Assembly (NCBI RefSeq): GCF_003060885.1
Contig: NZ_QAIG01000013.1
Location: 475,774-539,773 of the forward strand
Length of the DNA stretch: 64,000 bases
DNA from: Pseudomonas sp. HMWF032
Lineage (GTDB): Bacteria; Pseudomonadota; Gammaproteobacteria; Pseudomonadales; Pseudomonadaceae
Reading direction: 5' to 3'
A model generated the notes under the pieces. That model was not told the origin of the DNA and did no database searches. It was given only the letters and a program-made list of their open reading frames with translations. Position numbers and translations under genes: made by a program. Of the stretch, positions 1-13,150 are shown piece by piece (the first letter of the stretch is position 1; each line of letters opens with the position of its first letter).

Positions 1-875
1 CCGGTGGCCTGTATGGCAACCGTCAGGCCTTGGCGGCCCTGCAGCAGCGTGTGGCCAGTGAGCCGGGCGCGCGCCTGGTGTTCAACGGCGATGCCCACTG
101 GTTTGACGCCGATGCTGCGATTTTCCAACAGATTGAGCAGGGCCTTGCGGACCATATGGCGCTGCGTGGCAATGTTGAAACCGAACTGGGTCGTGCCGAT
201 GACAGCGGCGCGGGCTGCGGTTGCGCCTACCCGATGAGCGTGGATGAGGCCGTGGTCGAGCGCTCCAATGCCATCCAGCAGCAGTTGAAGCGCACCGTGC
301 ACGGCATCCCCGGCATGGCGCAATGTTTGGCCACACGGCCCTGCACGGCGGTGGTCAGCGTGGCGGGGCAACGCGTGGCGATCAGCCATGGCGACGAGCA
401 GTCTCTGGCGGGTTGGAGTTGTTCGCGTGAATCGCTGTGCGAGACGGCGCGTCAGCACGAGCTGGACCAATGGTTCGCCGCGCAGAACATTCAGGTGTTG
501 GCCACCAGCCATACGTGCGCGGCGGTGGCGCTTAACCTGACGCACGGCGCGTTGATCAATAACGGCGCGGCCGGCATGAGCAACTTTGCCGGCGGTCGTT
601 ATGGCCTGGTCAGCCGCATCGCCCGTACGCCCCACCCGGCTGCGCTCTACCGTGCCGAGCGCGACGGGGTGTTTATCGAGGCGCTTGCATTGAACTACGA
701 CCACGATGCCTTCCTCGCCGATTTCGACCGCCAGTGGCCAGCCGGCAGCCCGGCGGCACTGTCCTACCGTTCACGTATTTTGGGTGCTGTGGCCGACCAG
801 CCGCAGCATGCCCTACTGGCCGGCTTTAGCCTGTGCCACAGCCTGTGCGCTCTGGAGGCGCTGACTGATGAATAG
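1..875 (+). CDS. Metallophosphoesterase family protein (5' end outside window)
   Basis: About 290 residues are visible, read in the frame that is already open at base 3. The first visible residues, GGLYGN, look like the start of a calcineurin-like phosphoesterase fold, so probably only a short N-terminus is missing. Metal-site-like motifs follow in order: FNGDAH, LRGNVE, ISHGDE, ATSHT and NNGAAG. An unusual CGC cysteine pair lies at about 220 nt. The family hydrolyses phosphate esters; the substrate is unknown. The stop overlaps the next gene's start (start codon at 868), which suggests translational coupling. From memory, a family of this type (TIGR04168-like) occurs with arsenosugar-type radical SAM clusters; this assignment was not tested. 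Confidence 0.75.
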   Translation, partial: GGLYGNRQALAALQQRVASEPGARLVFNGDAHWFDADAAIFQQIEQGLADHMALRGNVETELGRADDSGAGCGCAYPMSVDEAVVERSNAIQQQLKRTVHGIPGMAQCLATRPCTAVVSVAGQRVAISHGDEQSLAGWSCSRESLCETARQHELDQWFAAQNIQVLATSHTCAAVALNLTHGALINNGAAGMSNFAGGRYGLVSRIARTPHPAALYRAERDGVFIEALALNYDHDAFLADFDRQWPAGSPAALSYRSRILGAVADQPQHALLAGFSLCHSLCALEALTDE

Positions 876-3009
876 CCGTAAATTGGCCTTGATGGGCGTG
901 ATTCTCGCCTTGCTGGGCAGCTTCTTTGTGTTCGACGTTGGCCAGTACCTCAATCTGGAGGCGCTTAAAGCACAGCAGGCGGCATTGAATGCCCAGGTAA
1001 CGGCGCAGCCCTGGCTGGCGGCCGGGGTGTTCTTCCTCGCCTATGTGGCGGTCACGGCATTGTCCTTGCCCGGTGCGGCGTTGATGACGCTGCTGGCCGG
1101 TGCGCTGTTCGGCCTGCTCGAAGGTTTTATTCTGGTGTCGTTCGCTTCGACGCTGGGGGCCACGTTGGCCATGCTCAGCAGCCGTTTTCTGCTGCGCGAC
1201 TGGGTGCAGAGCCGCTTTGGGCAGCGCTTGGCGGGTATTGATGCGGGCATTGAGCGTGAAGGCGCGTTTTATCTGTTTGCCCTGCGTCTGGTGCCAGTGT
1301 TCCCGTTCTTTTTGATCAACCTGGCCATGGGTCTGACCCGGCTGCCAGCGCGCACCTACTGGTGGGTGAGCCAACTGGGCATGCTGCCGGGCACGTTGGT
1401 GTTCGTGAACGCCGGGCGTGAACTGGGCAAGCTCGATTCGCTGGCCGGCATTCTTTCACCAGGGCTGCTCGGTGCCTTTGTGCTGCTCGGCGTATTCCCG
1501 CTGATCGCGCGCAAGCTGCTGGGCCTGATTCAGGCGCGGCGGGTGTACGCCGGTTGGGATAAACCCAAGACCTTCGACCGCAACCTGTTGGTGATCGGCG
1601 CGGGTGCCGGTGGCTTGGTCAGCGCGTACATCGCGGCGGCGGTAAAAGCCAAAGTCAGCCTGATCGAAAAACACCAGATGGGCGGCGACTGCCTGAACAC
1701 CGGCTGCGTGCCGTCCAAGGCGCTGCTGCGTTCGGCCAAGCTGGCCAATGAGCTGAAGAAAGCCCCGGCGCTGGGGTTTAGCGGTGTGCACGGCACGGTG
1801 GATTTCCCGGCGGTGATGGAACGGGTGCAGCGGGTGATTGCTGACATCGAGCCGCACGACTCGGTCGAACGCTACACCGGCTTGGGCGTTGAAGTGATTC
1901 AGGGGCAGGCGAAAATCCTCTCGCCCTGGAGCGTGGCGGTCAACGGCCAGACCCTGACCAGCCGCAACCTGATTATCGCCGCTGGCGCACGGCCGCTGGT
2001 GCCGAGCATTCCGGGCCTGGATCAGGTGCGCACGTACACCTCGGACACCATCTGGGGCCTGCGCGAACAACCGCGCTGGCTGCTGGTGCTGGGCGGCGGG
2101 CCAATCGGCTGCGAGCTGGCGCAGGCCTTTCAGCGCCTGGGCAGCCAGGTGATTCAGGTGGAACTGGCCGAGCGCTTATTGCCGCGTGAAGACGCAGACG
2201 CCAGCGCGCTGGTGCTCAACAGTTTGCTGGCCGATGGCGTCGACGTGCGCCTGCAACACCGGGCGGAACGCTTTGAAGTGGTCAACGGCGAGCAGCGCAT
2301 GATTGCCCGCCGTCAGGACACCGGCGAAGAAGTGACCATCGCCTTTGATGGCCTGCTGCTGGCGCTGGGCCGGGTGGCCAATGTCAGCGGTTATGGCGTT
2401 GAAGAGCTGGGCCTGACCCTACGCCCCAACGGCACGCTGGAAACCGACGAGTACCTGGCCACGCGTCTGCCCAATGTCTTCGCCGTGGGCGATGTCACCG
2501 GGCCTTATCAATTCACCCATGTGGCGGCGCACCAAGCCTGGTACGCAGCGGTGAATGCGCTGTTTGGCAGTTTCAAACGCTTCAAGGTGGATTACCGGGT
2601 CATCCCGCATTGCACCTTCACCGACCCGGAAGTGGCCCGGGTCGGCCTCTCGGAGACAGAAGCGCAGGCCAAGGGCATTGCCTATGAAGTGACGCGCTAC
2701 GGCATCGACGACCTCGACCGCGCGATTGCCGACGAAGCCGCCCACGGCTTTGTCAAAGTGCTGACCGTGCCGGGCAAGGATCAGATCCTCGGCGTGACCA
2801 TCGTCGGCGAACATGCCGGCGAATTGCTCACCGAATACGTGCTGGCCATGAAGTACAACCTCGGGCTGAACAAGATTCTCGGCACCATCCACAGCTACCC
2901 GACCATGAGCGAGGCGAATAAATACGCCGCCGGTGAATGGAAGCGCGCGCATGCCCCGCAGGGCCTGTTGCGCCTGGTCCAGCGCTTTCATGCCTGGAGG
3001 CTTAAGTGA
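868..3009 (+). CDS. TVP38/TMEM64 membrane domain fused to a mercuric-reductase-like FAD oxidoreductase
   Basis: This is a 713-residue fusion. Residues 1-225 are a TVP38/TMEM64 (DedA-like) integral membrane domain with several hydrophobic helices and the conserved LRLVPVFPFF segment. Residues 240-713 are a class I pyridine nucleotide-disulfide oxidoreductase: FAD motif GAGAGG (244-249), redox pair in GGDCLNTGCVPSK (Cys275 and Cys280), second nucleotide motif GGGPIGCE, FAD motif VFAVGDVTG, and a C-terminal dimer domain with HSYPTMSE. It lacks the N-terminal metal-binding domain and the C-terminal vicinal cysteines of true MerA, so mercury reduction is unlikely. The reductase probably faces the cytoplasm, tethered to the inner membrane. 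The gene overlaps both neighbours by a few bases, so it is part of a coupled operon. Substrate unknown. Confidence 0.85.
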   Translation: MNSRKLALMGVILALLGSFFVFDVGQYLNLEALKAQQAALNAQVTAQPWLAAGVFFLAYVAVTALSLPGAALMTLLAGALFGLLEGFILVSFASTLGATLAMLSSRFLLRDWVQSRFGQRLAGIDAGIEREGAFYLFALRLVPVFPFFLINLAMGLTRLPARTYWWVSQLGMLPGTLVFVNAGRELGKLDSLAGILSPGLLGAFVLLGVFPLIARKLLGLIQARRVYAGWDKPKTFDRNLLVIGAGAGGLVSAYIAAAVKAKVSLIEKHQMGGDCLNTGCVPSKALLRSAKLANELKKAPALGFSGVHGTVDFPAVMERVQRVIADIEPHDSVERYTGLGVEVIQGQAKILSPWSVAVNGQTLTSRNLIIAAGARPLVPSIPGLDQVRTYTSDTIWGLREQPRWLLVLGGGPIGCELAQAFQRLGSQVIQVELAERLLPREDADASALVLNSLLADGVDVRLQHRAERFEVVNGEQRMIARRQDTGEEVTIAFDGLLLALGRVANVSGYGVEELGLTLRPNGTLETDEYLATRLPNVFAVGDVTGPYQFTHVAAHQAWYAAVNALFGSFKRFKVDYRVIPHCTFTDPEVARVGLSETEAQAKGIAYEVTRYGIDDLDRAIADEAAHGFVKVLTVPGKDQILGVTIVGEHAGELLTEYVLAMKYNLGLNKILGTIHSYPTMSEANKYAAGEWKRAHAPQGLLRLVQRFHAWRLK

Positions 3010-3713
3010 GGCGCATCGGGCTGCTGGCCACGCTGTTGCTGGCGCCGTTGGCGCAGGCGGAAAACGTGCTGAGCCCCTGGACAGCCGGGCCACCAGCGGG
3101 CGAATGGTCAACGCCGTGGAAGCTGGCGGATATCCCCAAGCTGAAACCCTCGGCGCGCACGCTGGTAGAGCTGGACGGTCAGCCCGTGCTGCAAATCAAG
3201 GCCGATGCGGCAGCGGGTGGTTTGCTTCATCCGCTCGATTTGCCCGGCGATCAACCCTGGCAACTGAGCTGGCAATGGCGCACCGAACAGGCCTTGGATC
3301 AGGCCCGTTTTGCCACCCGAGAAGGCGACGACTACTCCGCACGCGTTTATGTACTGCTGGATTACCCGCTGGATTCGCTGAGCTTCGCCACGCGGCAGAA
3401 GCTGCGTCTGGCGCGCACCTTCTTCGATCCCGACCTGCCGGCGGCGACCCTCAGTTATGTCTGGGACAACCGCGCCGCCCCCGGCACCCATGCACGCAGT
3501 GCCTATACCGAGACGGTGGAGATGATTGTGCTGCGCGGCCCGGAAGCAGCGCTGGGCCAGTGGCAGCGCGAATCGCGCGACCTGCGCGCCGATGCCATTG
3601 CCGCTTTTGGCAGCGCACCGCGCAAAATCCTCGGCGTGGTGTTTGCCGCCGACAGCGACAACACCGGGGAATCGGCGCACAGCTATTTTGCTGCGCCGCA
3701 GTTGCAACGCTAA
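3006..3713 (+). CDS. DUF3047 domain-containing exported protein
   Basis: 235 residues from a GTG start that overlaps the previous stop codon. The N-terminus is a typical signal peptide (basic RR, then a Leu/Ala-rich core ending in AQA), so the product is probably periplasmic. The remainder matches the DUF3047 pattern: an LVELDGQPVLQIKADA strand, LSWQWR, and GDDYSARVYVLLDYPL. No catalytic residues are known for this family. Its coupling to the fused flavoprotein suggests it works in the same pathway. The function is not known and I assign none. Confidence 0.75.
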   Translation: MRRIGLLATLLLAPLAQAENVLSPWTAGPPAGEWSTPWKLADIPKLKPSARTLVELDGQPVLQIKADAAAGGLLHPLDLPGDQPWQLSWQWRTEQALDQARFATREGDDYSARVYVLLDYPLDSLSFATRQKLRLARTFFDPDLPAATLSYVWDNRAAPGTHARSAYTETVEMIVLRGPEAALGQWQRESRDLRADAIAAFGSAPRKILGVVFAADSDNTGESAHSYFAAPQLQR

Positions 3714-3770
3714 CGGGGCTGAGCACATCCAGTACCATAAGGGCCCCGTTTTCATGATGGATACGCGCGA

Positions 3771-4844
3771 TTGAGCACTCACTACGACCTGCTGTTGATC
3801 GGCGCCGGCCACGCCCACCTGGGTGTGCTGCGGCGCTGGGCCTTGGTCGAACGGCCACCGGGGCGCATTGCCTTGCTCAGTCCGGGGCCGGAGGCTTGGT
3901 ATTCCGGCATGTTGCCCGGTTTGCTGGCCGGGCGGCATCGGGCGGAGGACTGTCAGGTCGAGTTGCTGGCGCTGTGCCGTGCGGCCAAGGTTGAGTTGAT
4001 CATCGCGCCGGTTGAAAGCCTGTCCGCCGCGCAACAGCTGGTGCAAGTGGCGGACGGCCGTACGTTCAGCGCGCAATGGCTGTCGCTGAATGTCGGCGCG
4101 GGCATCCGCACGCCGGCGCAGCAGGGCAGCGCCATGCAGTTGCTGGCAGTCAAACCTTTCGATGAGTTTCTGCAGGGTTGGCAGCGCTGGCAGGCGCAGC
4201 CTGAACCTGTGGCGATTCTCGGTGGCGGTGCAGCGGCGGTTGAACTGGCGTTGGCCGTGGCCGACAAGGTGCCGCAACTGGCCCTGTTCTGTGCCGGTCA
4301 TCTGCTCGATGGCTTGTCGCCTGGCCTGCGTTTACGCGCCCTCGGCCATCTGCGCCAACGCCGGGTGCAGGTGCGTGAAGACTGTCCCATAAGCCAGATC
4401 AACGGCGACAGCTTGTTGAGTGGCACTGAACCCGTGTGGCGCGGTTTACGCTTGCTGTTGGCCAGCGGCGCGGCGGCGTGGCCGTGGCTGGCGCACAGTG
4501 GTCTGGGGTGTGATGAGCAGGGCTTTGTTTTAGTGGCGCCCACGTTGCAGAGCTACACCCAGCCCAGCCTGTTTGCTGTGGGCGACTGCGCCAGCCTGCC
4601 GGGTGCGCGCAAAAGTGGGGTCTATGCGGTGCGCCAGGGGCCGGTGCTGGCGTTTAACCTGCAAGCGGTCCTGCGTGGCCAGCCACTCAAAGCCTATCGG
4701 CCGCAGCGTCATACCCTCGCCTTGCTGGCCACTGGCGATGGCGGCGCGCTGATGGACTGGTACGGGCACAGTGCCGGCGGCCAATGCCTGGGTCGCTGGA
4801 AAGACCTGCTCGACAAGGGGTTTATCCACCGTCACAGTTTTTGA
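3771..4844 (+). CDS. SelD-associated FAD/NAD(P)-dependent oxidoreductase (TIGR03169-like)
   Basis: 357 residues. The N-terminus LLLIGAGHAHLGVLRRW is the dinucleotide-binding motif of a pyridine nucleotide-disulfide oxidoreductase subgroup. Members of this subgroup are often fused to, or encoded beside, selenophosphate synthetase (SelD). A second nucleotide-binding motif is AILGGGAAAVELAL, and the FAD signature is LFAVGDCAS. No CxxxxC redox pair is seen, so it acts more like an NADH dehydrogenase or ferredoxin reductase. The start is TTG at 3771; no in-frame ATG lies close upstream, so the start is uncertain. It follows the DUF3047 gene by 57 nt on the same strand and probably belongs to the same operon. 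SelD itself is not in the window. Confidence 0.75.
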   Translation: MSTHYDLLLIGAGHAHLGVLRRWALVERPPGRIALLSPGPEAWYSGMLPGLLAGRHRAEDCQVELLALCRAAKVELIIAPVESLSAAQQLVQVADGRTFSAQWLSLNVGAGIRTPAQQGSAMQLLAVKPFDEFLQGWQRWQAQPEPVAILGGGAAAVELALAVADKVPQLALFCAGHLLDGLSPGLRLRALGHLRQRRVQVREDCPISQINGDSLLSGTEPVWRGLRLLLASGAAAWPWLAHSGLGCDEQGFVLVAPTLQSYTQPSLFAVGDCASLPGARKSGVYAVRQGPVLAFNLQAVLRGQPLKAYRPQRHTLALLATGDGGALMDWYGHSAGGQCLGRWKDLLDKGFIHRHSF

Positions 4845-11569: not shown

Positions 11570-11606
11570 TGCGCCTGAGTAGCCATCCGGCTGACCGGAG
11601 CTCACT

Positions 11607-12116
11607 GTGCCTGCCTCTGATTTAGACCTCTCCACCGACCTCGACACGCTCTACCGCCAGCACCACGGCTGGCTGGAAGGCTGGCTGCGGCGCAAGCTGA
11701 ACGACACCTTTGCCGCCGCAGACCTGGCCCAGGACACCTTCGTCAGCGTTATTCATTCCGCTCAGGCCAGTGAAATTCGCGAACCCAGGCCCTTTCTGGC
11801 GACCATTGCGCGCCGTCTGATTGCCCATCGCCATCGCCGCCAACGCCTGGAAGACGCCTACCTTGAAGTGCTCGCCAGCCTGCCGGAAGCGGTTTATCCC
11901 TCTCCGGAAGAACAACTGCAGGCACTGGAAACCCTGCGCCAGATCGACAGCGCCCTCGACGGCCTGCCGGCCCAGGTCAAGGAAGCCTTCCTGCTCGCCC
12001 ACCTGGAAGAACTCAGCTATGCCGAAATCGCCCAACGCCTGGGCGTGTCCAGCAGCTCGGTGAAGCAGTACCTGATGCGTGCCAACCGCCAATACCTGTT
12101 CGCGCTGGCCAGCTGA
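11607..12116 (+). CDS. ECF sigma factor, FecI-like
   Basis: 169 residues from a GTG start with a GGAG ribosome-binding site. Region 2 spans about residues 10-75 (LYRQHHGWLEGWLRRKL and DLAQDTFVSV). Region 4 spans about 105-160 (LPAQVKEAFLLAHLEELSY and AEIAQRLGVSSSSVKQYLM). This is the FecI class that drives iron-siderophore receptor genes after a surface signal. It is followed 2 nt later by a fecR-type gene and then the receptor, the standard order for cell-surface signalling. A Fur-box-like site precedes it. Confidence 0.92.
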   Translation: MPASDLDLSTDLDTLYRQHHGWLEGWLRRKLNDTFAAADLAQDTFVSVIHSAQASEIREPRPFLATIARRLIAHRHRRQRLEDAYLEVLASLPEAVYPSPEEQLQALETLRQIDSALDGLPAQVKEAFLLAHLEELSYAEIAQRLGVSSSSVKQYLMRANRQYLFALAS

Positions 12117-12118
12117 AC

Positions 12119-13150
12119 ATGAACGGACAACGCAGCGCGGTTTACCCCAACACACCCGCCAGGCCTTTGGCCGAGGGTCAGCCGATCAGCGCGGCAGTGG
12201 CCGACCAGGCGGTGGAATGGCTGACCCTGCTGATGTCCGGCGCAACCAGCACGCAGGAGCAGCTGGCTTGGCAGGCCTGGCGCGCCGCCAGCCCTGAGCA
12301 CGAACGCGCCTGGCGGCATATCGAGGCCATGACCGGCCGACTCAAGGCATTGCCAGCCAAGAGTGCCTACCAGACGCTCTCACCCTATGCCCGACAAACG
12401 GCTCAGGCCAGCCGCCGCACGCTGCTGCGCTCGCTGTTCTGGGGTGGGTTGCTGGCCGGCTCCGGGCTGCTGGCCAGCCGCACCAGCACCTGGCGGGAAC
12501 AGCTCGCCGAACACCGCACGGGCACGGGTGAGCAACGCCGCGTGACCCTCAGCGATGGCACCCGCGTGACACTCAACACCGCCACGGCGCTCGACCTGCA
12601 GTTCGATGCGCACACCCGCCTGCTGCACCTGCGCGCGGGCGAGATCATGGTCGTCACTGCCGCGGCCCAGGGCCTGCAGCCTGTTGACCCACGGCCGCTG
12701 GAGGTGCAAACCGCACAAGGGCGCATTCGCGCGCTGGGCACGCGTTTCAGCGTGCGCCAGGACGACGGCCATACCCAAGTGGCCGTGCAGGAAAGCGCCG
12801 TACAGCTCCACCCGAGCCGCAGTGACCGCGTGCAGGTGCTGCTGGCTGGGCAACGCACCGGCTTCAGCCGCACCCATATCGACCCGCTGCGCCCGCTGCA
12901 TGAGGCTGATCTGGCCTGGACCCGTGGGCAGATCATTGCTGACGACATGCCCCTGGGCGAATTTATCGCCGAGCTTGATCGTTACCGCCCCTGGGTGCTG
13001 CGCTGCGATCCGCACGTGGCCGGGTTGCGCCTGTCCGGGGTGTTCCCGGTGCACGACAGCGATCGCATTCTCGTCACCCTGTCCAGCGTGCTGCCAGTGC
13101 AGGTGCGCACCCGCAGCCGCTACTGGGTGCTGATCGAACAGGCCGGCTAA
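12119..13150 (+). CDS. FecR family anti-sigma/sigma regulator
   Basis: 343 residues. The N-terminus has a DUF4880-type cytoplasmic region (AVEWLTLLMSGATSTQEQLA, then WRAASPEHERAWRHIE). A single membrane helix follows at about residues 100-118 (LFWGGLLAGSGLLAS). The periplasmic FecR domain contains VTLSDGTRVTLNTATALDL and a C-terminal LIEQ tail. The protein relays receptor occupancy across the inner membrane to the sigma factor encoded immediately upstream. The 122 nt after it hold the receptor gene promoter, where I could not identify a clear FecI-type box. Confidence 0.92.
   Translation: MNGQRSAVYPNTPARPLAEGQPISAAVADQAVEWLTLLMSGATSTQEQLAWQAWRAASPEHERAWRHIEAMTGRLKALPAKSAYQTLSPYARQTAQASRRTLLRSLFWGGLLAGSGLLASRTSTWREQLAEHRTGTGEQRRVTLSDGTRVTLNTATALDLQFDAHTRLLHLRAGEIMVVTAAAQGLQPVDPRPLEVQTAQGRIRALGTRFSVRQDDGHTQVAVQESAVQLHPSRSDRVQVLLAGQRTGFSRTHIDPLRPLHEADLAWTRGQIIADDMPLGEFIAELDRYRPWVLRCDPHVAGLRLSGVFPVHDSDRILVTLSSVLPVQVRTRSRYWVLIEQAG

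Follow-up and report, generated by a model that had tools for sequence, protein, structure and literature searches.

The stretch of DNA analysed here (the window, 64,000 nucleotides; C9:475774-539773) comes from the 4.39 Mb genome of Pseudomonas sp. HMWF032. Its left edge carries four genes, all present on the + strand as the earlier note had read them: the 3′ part of a gene for a metallophosphoesterase-like protein (MPE; 1..875), and the genes of a VTT-flavin reductase (868..3009), a DUF3047 protein (3006..3713) and a TIGR03169-like FAD oxidoreductase (3771..4844). Reading the 12 kb to the left of the window gave an extended locus, L004, in which each position is the window position plus 12000. 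The four genes are genes 3 to 6 of an ArsS operon of six genes and make up its 3′ part. The run begins with the ArsS-type radical SAM gene that had been expected on this side (L004:9528-10505; TIGR04167 with 450 bits against a cut-off of 300, and PF12345) and continues with a sodium:solute symporter gene (SSF; L004:10516-11907; PF00474 with 25.5 bits, cut-off 22.8). A distance of 1.4 kb separates the end of the ArsS gene from the start of MPE, which lies 94-97 nt outside the window, at the TTG of L004:11904 or the ATG of 11907; the MPE gene ends at 12875 and encodes 322-323 amino acids. It is followed by the genes of the reductase (L004:12868-15009), the DUF3047 protein (L004:15006-15713) and the FAD oxidoreductase (L004:15771-16844).

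The stop codon of the SSF gene overlaps the ATG of MPE (TGATG). The overlaps that had been described between the first three genes of the window both exist, and the GTGA junction of the reductase and DUF3047 genes (3006-3009) is correct, but the MPE and reductase genes overlap by 8 nt (ATG at 868, stop at 873-875) and not by ATGA. The fourth gene starts 57 nt after the end of the third, as was claimed. Upstream of ArsS, a rough gene call places a gene in the opposite direction, and an MCP-like gene follows the last gene of the operon. Simple scans for a promoter and a terminator (261 and 451 bases) gave no match.

The ArsS protein carries the radical SAM CX3CX2C motif and conserved C-terminal cysteines (C32, C36, C39, C308, C311, C319), and its nearest named relatives belong to two Pseudomonas MAGs (94% and 79%). 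Within the genus, ArsS was found in 13 of 149 genomes, at 14 loci. All six genes, in the same order and on the same strand, are present in 11 of these 14 loci, sometimes with extra genes intervening; two of the remaining three carry ArsS together with the reductase, one of them also a short TIGR03169 match, while the third stops at a contig edge. Since this order is kept and relatives of the genes recur near ArsS elsewhere, a chance grouping of unrelated neighbours was rejected.

The glycosyltransferase pair TIGR04283/TIGR04282, which the earlier note associated with such genes, is encoded in the genome and is common beside ArsS in relatives, but it does not lie beside the operon here. The TIGR04283 gene (C3:508654-509298; 259.6 bits) is on another contig; the adjoining TIGR04282-like gene was scored by likeness and not by model, and is 37% identical to the L071 domain (tblastn). 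An MTA phosphorylase gene also lies away from the operon, at C3:202675. Of the 149 genus genomes, the 13 with ArsS, and no others, have TIGR04283 above its cut-off. In the class, ArsS was found in 138 of 274 genomes, and TIGR04283 (about E<=1e-40) in 135 of these 138 versus 12 of the 136 others, counts that are uncorrected for relatedness. Before counting, 17 genomes with TIGR04283 matches weaker than about E 1e-40 had been removed by hand, and these include the three ArsS genomes counted as lacking TIGR04283.

An ArsM-type match (NF040538, E<=1e-20) was obtained in 94 of the 138 ArsS genomes of the class versus 10 of the 136 others (relatedness again uncorrected), which ties ArsS to arsenic methylation, and therefore to arsenic, at the class level. 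The stricter set (at least 300 bits) comprises 38 class genomes, 36 of them with ArsS, and misses the ArsM subfamily of L076, a locus from a Pseudomonas MAG. The rise from 36 to 94 of 138 with the wider count thus speaks for an arsenic role of the family and leaves the genomes without ArsM in the minority. According to excerpts of the published work, ArsS adenosylates arsenic in oxo-arsenosugar biosynthesis (PMC12159101, citing Cheng 2021) and SsArsS works with SsArsM (PMC8552651). On these precedents the operon almost certainly belongs to an ArsS-type pathway, and its product is probably an organoarsenical.

The gene at the left edge had been related to TIGR04168, an assignment that was lost: no NCBIfam model matched the protein at E<=0.01, and TIGR04168 was absent among 22 homologues at E<=5, a scan in which 6 models matched any of the 22 and most matches with an E above about 0.1 are lost to the HMMER filters. 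Pfam Metallophos_2 remained below its cut-off in the MPE copy of locus L075 (17 versus 27 bits), and the MPE profile gave three weak, unrelated-looking matches among PDB sequences. The metallophosphoesterase fold nevertheless gained support from structure prediction. The AlphaFold2 model of the L075 copy, which is 82% identical to that of the window, has a pLDDT of 91.6 and matches SapH-type Ap4A hydrolase (3qfm/3qfn) and archaeal phosphoesterases (1nnw), with a Foldseek E of 6e-10 and, by VIA-align, a Z of 20.5-20.7 and an rmsd of 2.9-3.2 over 229-237 residues. The predicted structure supports a calcineurin-like metallophosphoesterase fold, shared with these proteins. Unlike them, MPE has the ligands of one metal site replaced and four family-specific invariant cysteines, at 11-16% identity.

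The metal-binding Asp and His of motif I (D-x-H-G-N) are presumably to be expected at Gly35 and Tyr37 (6..14, on the + strand like all codons given here), which are Gly and Tyr in 33/33 homologues. Asp63 of motif II (90..92) and His162-Gly-Asp164 of motif IV (387..395) are kept; in motif III (GNxE), read as Asn90-Val91-Glu92 (171..179), the Asn is kept and the usual His is replaced, mostly by Val. In motif V, His203-Thr-Cys205 (510..518), the second His has become Cys, and both the His and the Cys are found in 33/33 homologues. The full set of ligands for two metals is thus lacking, with D to G35, H to Y37 and H to C205 in all 33. We take the positions of G35, Y37 and C205 to belong to one site and D63, N90, H162 and H203, which are invariant, to form the other, as the motif reading indicates. 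C8, C105, C107 and C205 are likewise invariant in 33/33 homologues, C105 and C107 within an invariant Cys105-Gly-Cys107 (216..224). These substitutions suggest a one-metal site with an adjoining putative thiol site.

The second protein of the window is the TVP38-flavin reductase fusion that had been described, a membrane VTT (TVP38-type) domain (PF09335, 78.8 bits) joined to an NAD(P)H disulfide-reductase-like flavoprotein (PF07992, PF02852). Its redox pair Cys275/Cys280 is found in 54/54 homologues that share 50% identity or more, and no cysteines occur beyond residue 582 in the window's protein, so that a disulfide- or thiol-linked role is likely. Mercuric reductase MerA was rejected as an identity, TIGR02053 giving 373.9 bits, below its cut-off of 454.45. 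The DUF3047 identity was confirmed (PF11249, 185.5 bits). The N-terminus of this protein is signal-like as judged by eye, and the model of its own sequence (pLDDT 89.4) is a jelly-roll sandwich which, by Foldseek and VIA-align, resembles carbohydrate-binding modules among other proteins. Sugar binding is possible from this predicted fold; the jelly-roll is a common fold and says no more. The last protein had been called a SelD-associated FAD oxidoreductase. Its likeness to TIGR03169 holds, just under the cut-off (297.2 versus 310 bits), and the association with SelD does not, as it stands alone without a SelD domain and SelD is encoded on another contig. A remote NDH-2/FSP1 likeness was found, with YjlD and FSP1 as PDB matches.

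The neighbourhood of ArsS was then compared in other genomes. Forty class loci came from the highest-scoring of the 138 ArsS genomes, ten in that range being omitted by hand, mostly near contig ends, and a further 80, out of 593, were those whose ArsS most resembled that of this operon. In 121 loci, gene families were derived from rough gene calls, which missed the ArsS frame in 2/121 and gave wrong frames in other, GC-rich cases. These approximate counts comprise a gene cluster with both TIGR04283 and TIGR04282 in 78/121 loci, an ArsM-like methyltransferase in 33, an ECF sigma factor in 26, MTA phosphorylase in 14, DUF547 and an OlsE-like protein in 12 each, and PhnD and PhnE in 7 each. Addition of 13 genus loci gave 134 loci that were counted by tblastn, and these counts are preferred: VTT-reductase 75, MPE 34, ArsM 34, TIGR03169 27, DUF3047 25, SSF 21, MTA phosphorylase 16 and PhnD 9. 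Many loci end at contig ends, and absences in loci are to be read as lower bounds. The earlier note's statement that relatives of the phosphoesterase, DUF3047 and TVP38 families occur near ArsS-type genes is thereby supported.

The MPE gene was accompanied by SSF in 20 of its 34 loci and by a PhnD-type ABC transporter in 9, never by both. One or the other was present in 29/34 MPE loci versus 1/100 loci without MPE (17/22 versus 1/96 with the 16 Pseudomonas loci left out), and the importer was absent from 5 of the 34. ArsM lay near ArsS in 1/34 MPE loci (L116, an ArsM-like match of 29% identity) versus 33/100 others (1/22 versus 32/96 with the Pseudomonas loci left out). In the genome of the window itself, no ArsM was detected at E<=1e-15 with a protein query or at E<=1e-20 with NF040538; the protein query (the L076 ArsM) recovered 4/4 positive controls and NF040538 at E<=1e-20 3/4. 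The comparison was extended to whole genomes in 50 of 76 cases, picked by hand as 23 with MPE, 4 with ArsM and 23 with neither gene at the locus. The L076 ArsM query found ArsM in 2/23 MPE genomes versus 10/23 of those with neither, and NF040538 in 1/23 versus 7/23, with 3/4 of the ArsM controls. The genome of Denitromonas (L127) holds MPE, SSF and a full-length ArsM, and that of L104, which has MPE, two partial ArsM matches; together with L116, these cases show that MPE and ArsM are not strictly exclusive.

The distribution of these genes was placed on an ArsS tree of 134 rows, built by a quick method; 24 of its 128 inner branches are starred. Counted over the 67 rows that bear labels, the tree requires 6 changes for SSF, of which starred branches force at least 4, as well as 5 for PhnD (at least 3) and 7 for ArsM (at least 2). 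Loci of the PhnD and SSF types are intermingled in small clades that carry no star, namely L077 with L078 and L081 (support 90) and L088 with L098 and L104 (support 93), and the ArsM-type locus L076 falls outside the other Pseudomonas loci. In an independent-pairs analysis, the importer went with MPE in 4.5 pairs and against it in 0 of 6, which is weak at p of about 0.06; for ArsM versus MPE the values were 0 same and 0.7 opposite in 6 pairs, a test without power.

MPE itself was found in 8 of the 274 class genomes, 5 with ArsS, 7 with TIGR04283 and none with a strong ArsM, one of them (G087) having a weak ArsM-type match. It is not enriched with ArsS in this sample (5/8 versus 133/266), and it lies away from ArsS in 7 of the 8 genomes. 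In four of these seven (L170, L173, L174 and L176), an SSF or SSF-like gene adjoins MPE; the L170 copy was missed by the gene call, and a profile search puts it directly after SSF. Among the open-licence papers searched, there was no description of MPE in an ArsS cluster, and nothing that combined "arsenosugar" with "metallophosphoesterase".

The presence of an importer and MPE in place of ArsM suggests that the feedstock is taken from outside the cell. We give even chances to the operon being an ArsS pathway variant whose feedstock is imported and not supplied by ArsM, and slightly poorer ones to the importer and MPE having taken the place of ArsM. More tentatively, there may exist a second route for feeding ArsS, in which a methylated arsenical, or a phosphite- or phosphonate-like analogue, is imported through either of two unrelated transporters and prepared by a new metallophosphoesterase-fold protein, one metal site of which has turned into a thiol site. 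The sequences themselves provide the operon and its families, the co-occurrence in the genus, the failure to detect ArsM, the pairing of MPE with importers and the altered MPE motifs; from these we infer all substrates and the order of the steps. SSF, or in some relatives the PhnD/PhnE-type ABC importer, would import a small oxyanion, for which a methylated arsenical (methylarsonate, for instance) is the likeliest candidate and a phosphorus analogue an alternative. The Cys-rich single-metal MPE would convert or hold it in a trivalent thiol-bound form, with the membrane-anchored VTT-flavin disulfide reductase maintaining its thiols in the reduced state. ArsS would then add the 5′-deoxyadenosyl group of SAM to create the C-As bond, an MTA-phosphorylase-type enzyme would remove adenine, and the unlinked TIGR04282/TIGR04283 pair would transfer the arsenoribosyl unit. 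The DUF3047 and TIGR03169-like proteins may act late, on or near the exported product. In Pseudomonas and Burkholderiales, such a route would connect the scavenging of methylated arsenic from the environment with arsenosugar-type products.

The best surviving alternative, which we consider unlikely, is a plain ArsS pathway: ArsS would act on inorganic arsenite, or on methylated arsenic diffusing in from neighbours, and SSF, MPE and the remaining genes would have accessory roles, such as exporting the product or tailoring it. In Burkholderia gladioli, direct use of inorganic As(III) has been reported for the radical SAM enzyme ArsL (PMC8552651). The 44 of 138 ArsS class genomes without an ArsM-type match at E<=1e-20 also fit this alternative, since the lack of ArsM is thus not peculiar to the MPE branch. 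It accounts poorly, however, for two non-homologous transporters, each of which accompanies MPE and is nearly absent from the loci that lack it, and PhnD-type systems are importers. These 44 genomes are about a third of the class genomes with ArsS; for one branch, the module of MPE and importer would offer a concrete answer to where the ArsS substrate comes from, with a predicted new metalloid-handling protein.

What is imported was approached through the transporters. For SSF, a search of the PDB at E<=0.01 gave no relative. For the L097 protein of PhnD type, the best match was HtxB (177 bits), followed by PtxB (87), AioX (61) and ArrX (54). In all nine ArsS-linked PhnD-type proteins there is an STS motif and a His187, aligned with Phe158 of HtxB, and the residue after Asp204 is Tyr (in 7) or Phe (in 2), an arrangement like that of the cap in phosphite binders. 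Phosphite binders are described, in an excerpt of PMC5700983, with an STS-H motif and a Tyr cap, and HtxB with Phe158 in place of the His, which blocks a third oxygen. This pattern predicts a three-oxygen anion as the ligand: methylarsonate, phosphite or methylphosphonate. Dimethylarsinate, first considered from the HtxB likeness, is weakened by the His of the nine proteins, and an AioX-like binding of arsenite through cysteine was rejected, none being conserved among the nine.

The predicted pocket would accommodate an anion of the phosphite or phosphonate kind just as well, and the window's own operon contains no arsenic-specific gene besides ArsS; both points count against the import-fed arsenic reading. 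The pocket is the main ground for a further reading, that the ArsM-less MPE branch acts on phosphorus, its ArsS-like enzyme adenosylating a phosphite- or phosphonate-like anion taken up from outside, in which case a previously unknown adenosyl-phosphonate pathway would be at hand. The predicted phosphoesterase fold of MPE agrees with it. Against this, ten cysteines of ArsS, those of the CX3CX2C motif included, are conserved alike in ArsM-type and MPE-type loci, the TIGR04283/TIGR04282 partners are kept and MPE has lost the ligands of one metal site. Furthermore, in radical addition trivalent As is poorly mimicked by P(III). We regard a phosphorus substrate as distinctly improbable.

A selenium pathway, suggested by the TIGR03169-like protein (the model is named Nterm_to_SelD), by the ArsS family, some TIGR04167 proteins being selenoproteins according to an excerpt of PMC13188914, by a SelD gene in the genome and by a sub-threshold match of the L097 PhnD-type protein to the putative selenate-binding TIGR04553 (105 versus 250 bits), is scarcely credible, because SelD lies on another contig (C1:20992), the FAD protein is unfused, ArsS has Cys and no in-frame stop, and selenium names among the 10 L004 proteins scanned were limited to TIGR03169/TIGR04369, a weak SQR selenoprotein-subtype match and TIGR04167. 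The "selenium/arsenosugar-type cluster" of the earlier note thus retains its arsenosugar half.

The import-fed variant was compared with known systems. It resembles the Synechocystis SsArsM/SsArsS route to oxo-arsenosugars in the ArsS-type enzyme, at family level, and in the TIGR04282/TIGR04283 pair of the genome; it differs by the undetected ArsM, the SSF and Cys-rich MPE of the operon, the membrane VTT-flavin reductase and the unlinked position of the pair. As the search did not find ArsM in the genome, the operon was not classed with that pathway, which it parallels in the ArsS step. With the ArsM-type ArsS clusters of Proteobacteria, exemplified by L076, it shares ArsS, the VTT-flavin reductase and the TIGR03169-like protein. 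Unlike the operon here, L076 lacks SSF and MPE, and has ArsM, DUF547, the glycosyltransferase pair, a Cys/Met PLP enzyme and a low-molecular-weight phosphatase-type protein (PF01451) that we read as a putative ArsC. The arsinothricin operon arsQML of Burkholderia gladioli is likewise short and combines a C-As-bond-making radical SAM enzyme with a transporter, but there ArsL transfers an aminocarboxypropyl group, and ArsM and an efflux permease, ArsQ, are present, as far as described in the excerpt of PMC8552651. The same excerpt gives BgArsM four cysteines, at 30, 54, 181 and 233. Among the ArsM-like proteins encoded near ArsS, C24, C25, C52, C145 and C195 are conserved in 30/30, and C345 and C346 in 93%.

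TIGR04167, the family of the radical SAM protein ArsS, was present in 138 of the 274 genomes of the class sample. No match of the arsenite methyltransferase (ArsM) type at E<=1e-20 was obtained in 44 of these 138 genomes, so that in those 44 the name "arsenosugar biosynthesis" given by the database may or may not apply. An ECF sigma factor was encoded near ArsS in 26 of the 121 loci around ArsS (for instance at L089:5222-5833), and the single copy scanned matched TIGR02943; this protein may be a regulator or a mere neighbour.

The six-gene order of the ArsS operon was interrupted in some relatives. In the genus locus L158, a frame at 11603-12316, peroxiredoxin/thioredoxin-like as judged from its sequence only, lies between the SSF symporter and the metallophosphoesterase-like (MPE) genes. 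In both L158 and L075, DUF3047 is separated from the TIGR03169-like gene by two insertions, a regulator that looks AraC-type and a fatty acid desaturase. The ArsS cluster of L078 is followed by genes for a Rieske-type ring-hydroxylating oxygenase and a rhodanese (L078:18650-20739), these assignments coming from a scan that covered L078 alone among L077, L078, L081 and L111. The gene families of the pair (clusters 42 and 38) recur in L077 and L081, and cluster 42 additionally in L111.

In genome G202, where ArsS was not detected at E<=1e-30, the SSF, MPE and VTT-flavin reductase genes and a weak DUF3047-like match were found close to one another (locus L174); TIGR04283 is encoded away from this group. 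Genome G333 contains two ArsS loci (L160 and L161), one of the six-gene type and the other with the VTT-flavin reductase, DUF547 and divergent TIGR04283/04282-like genes.
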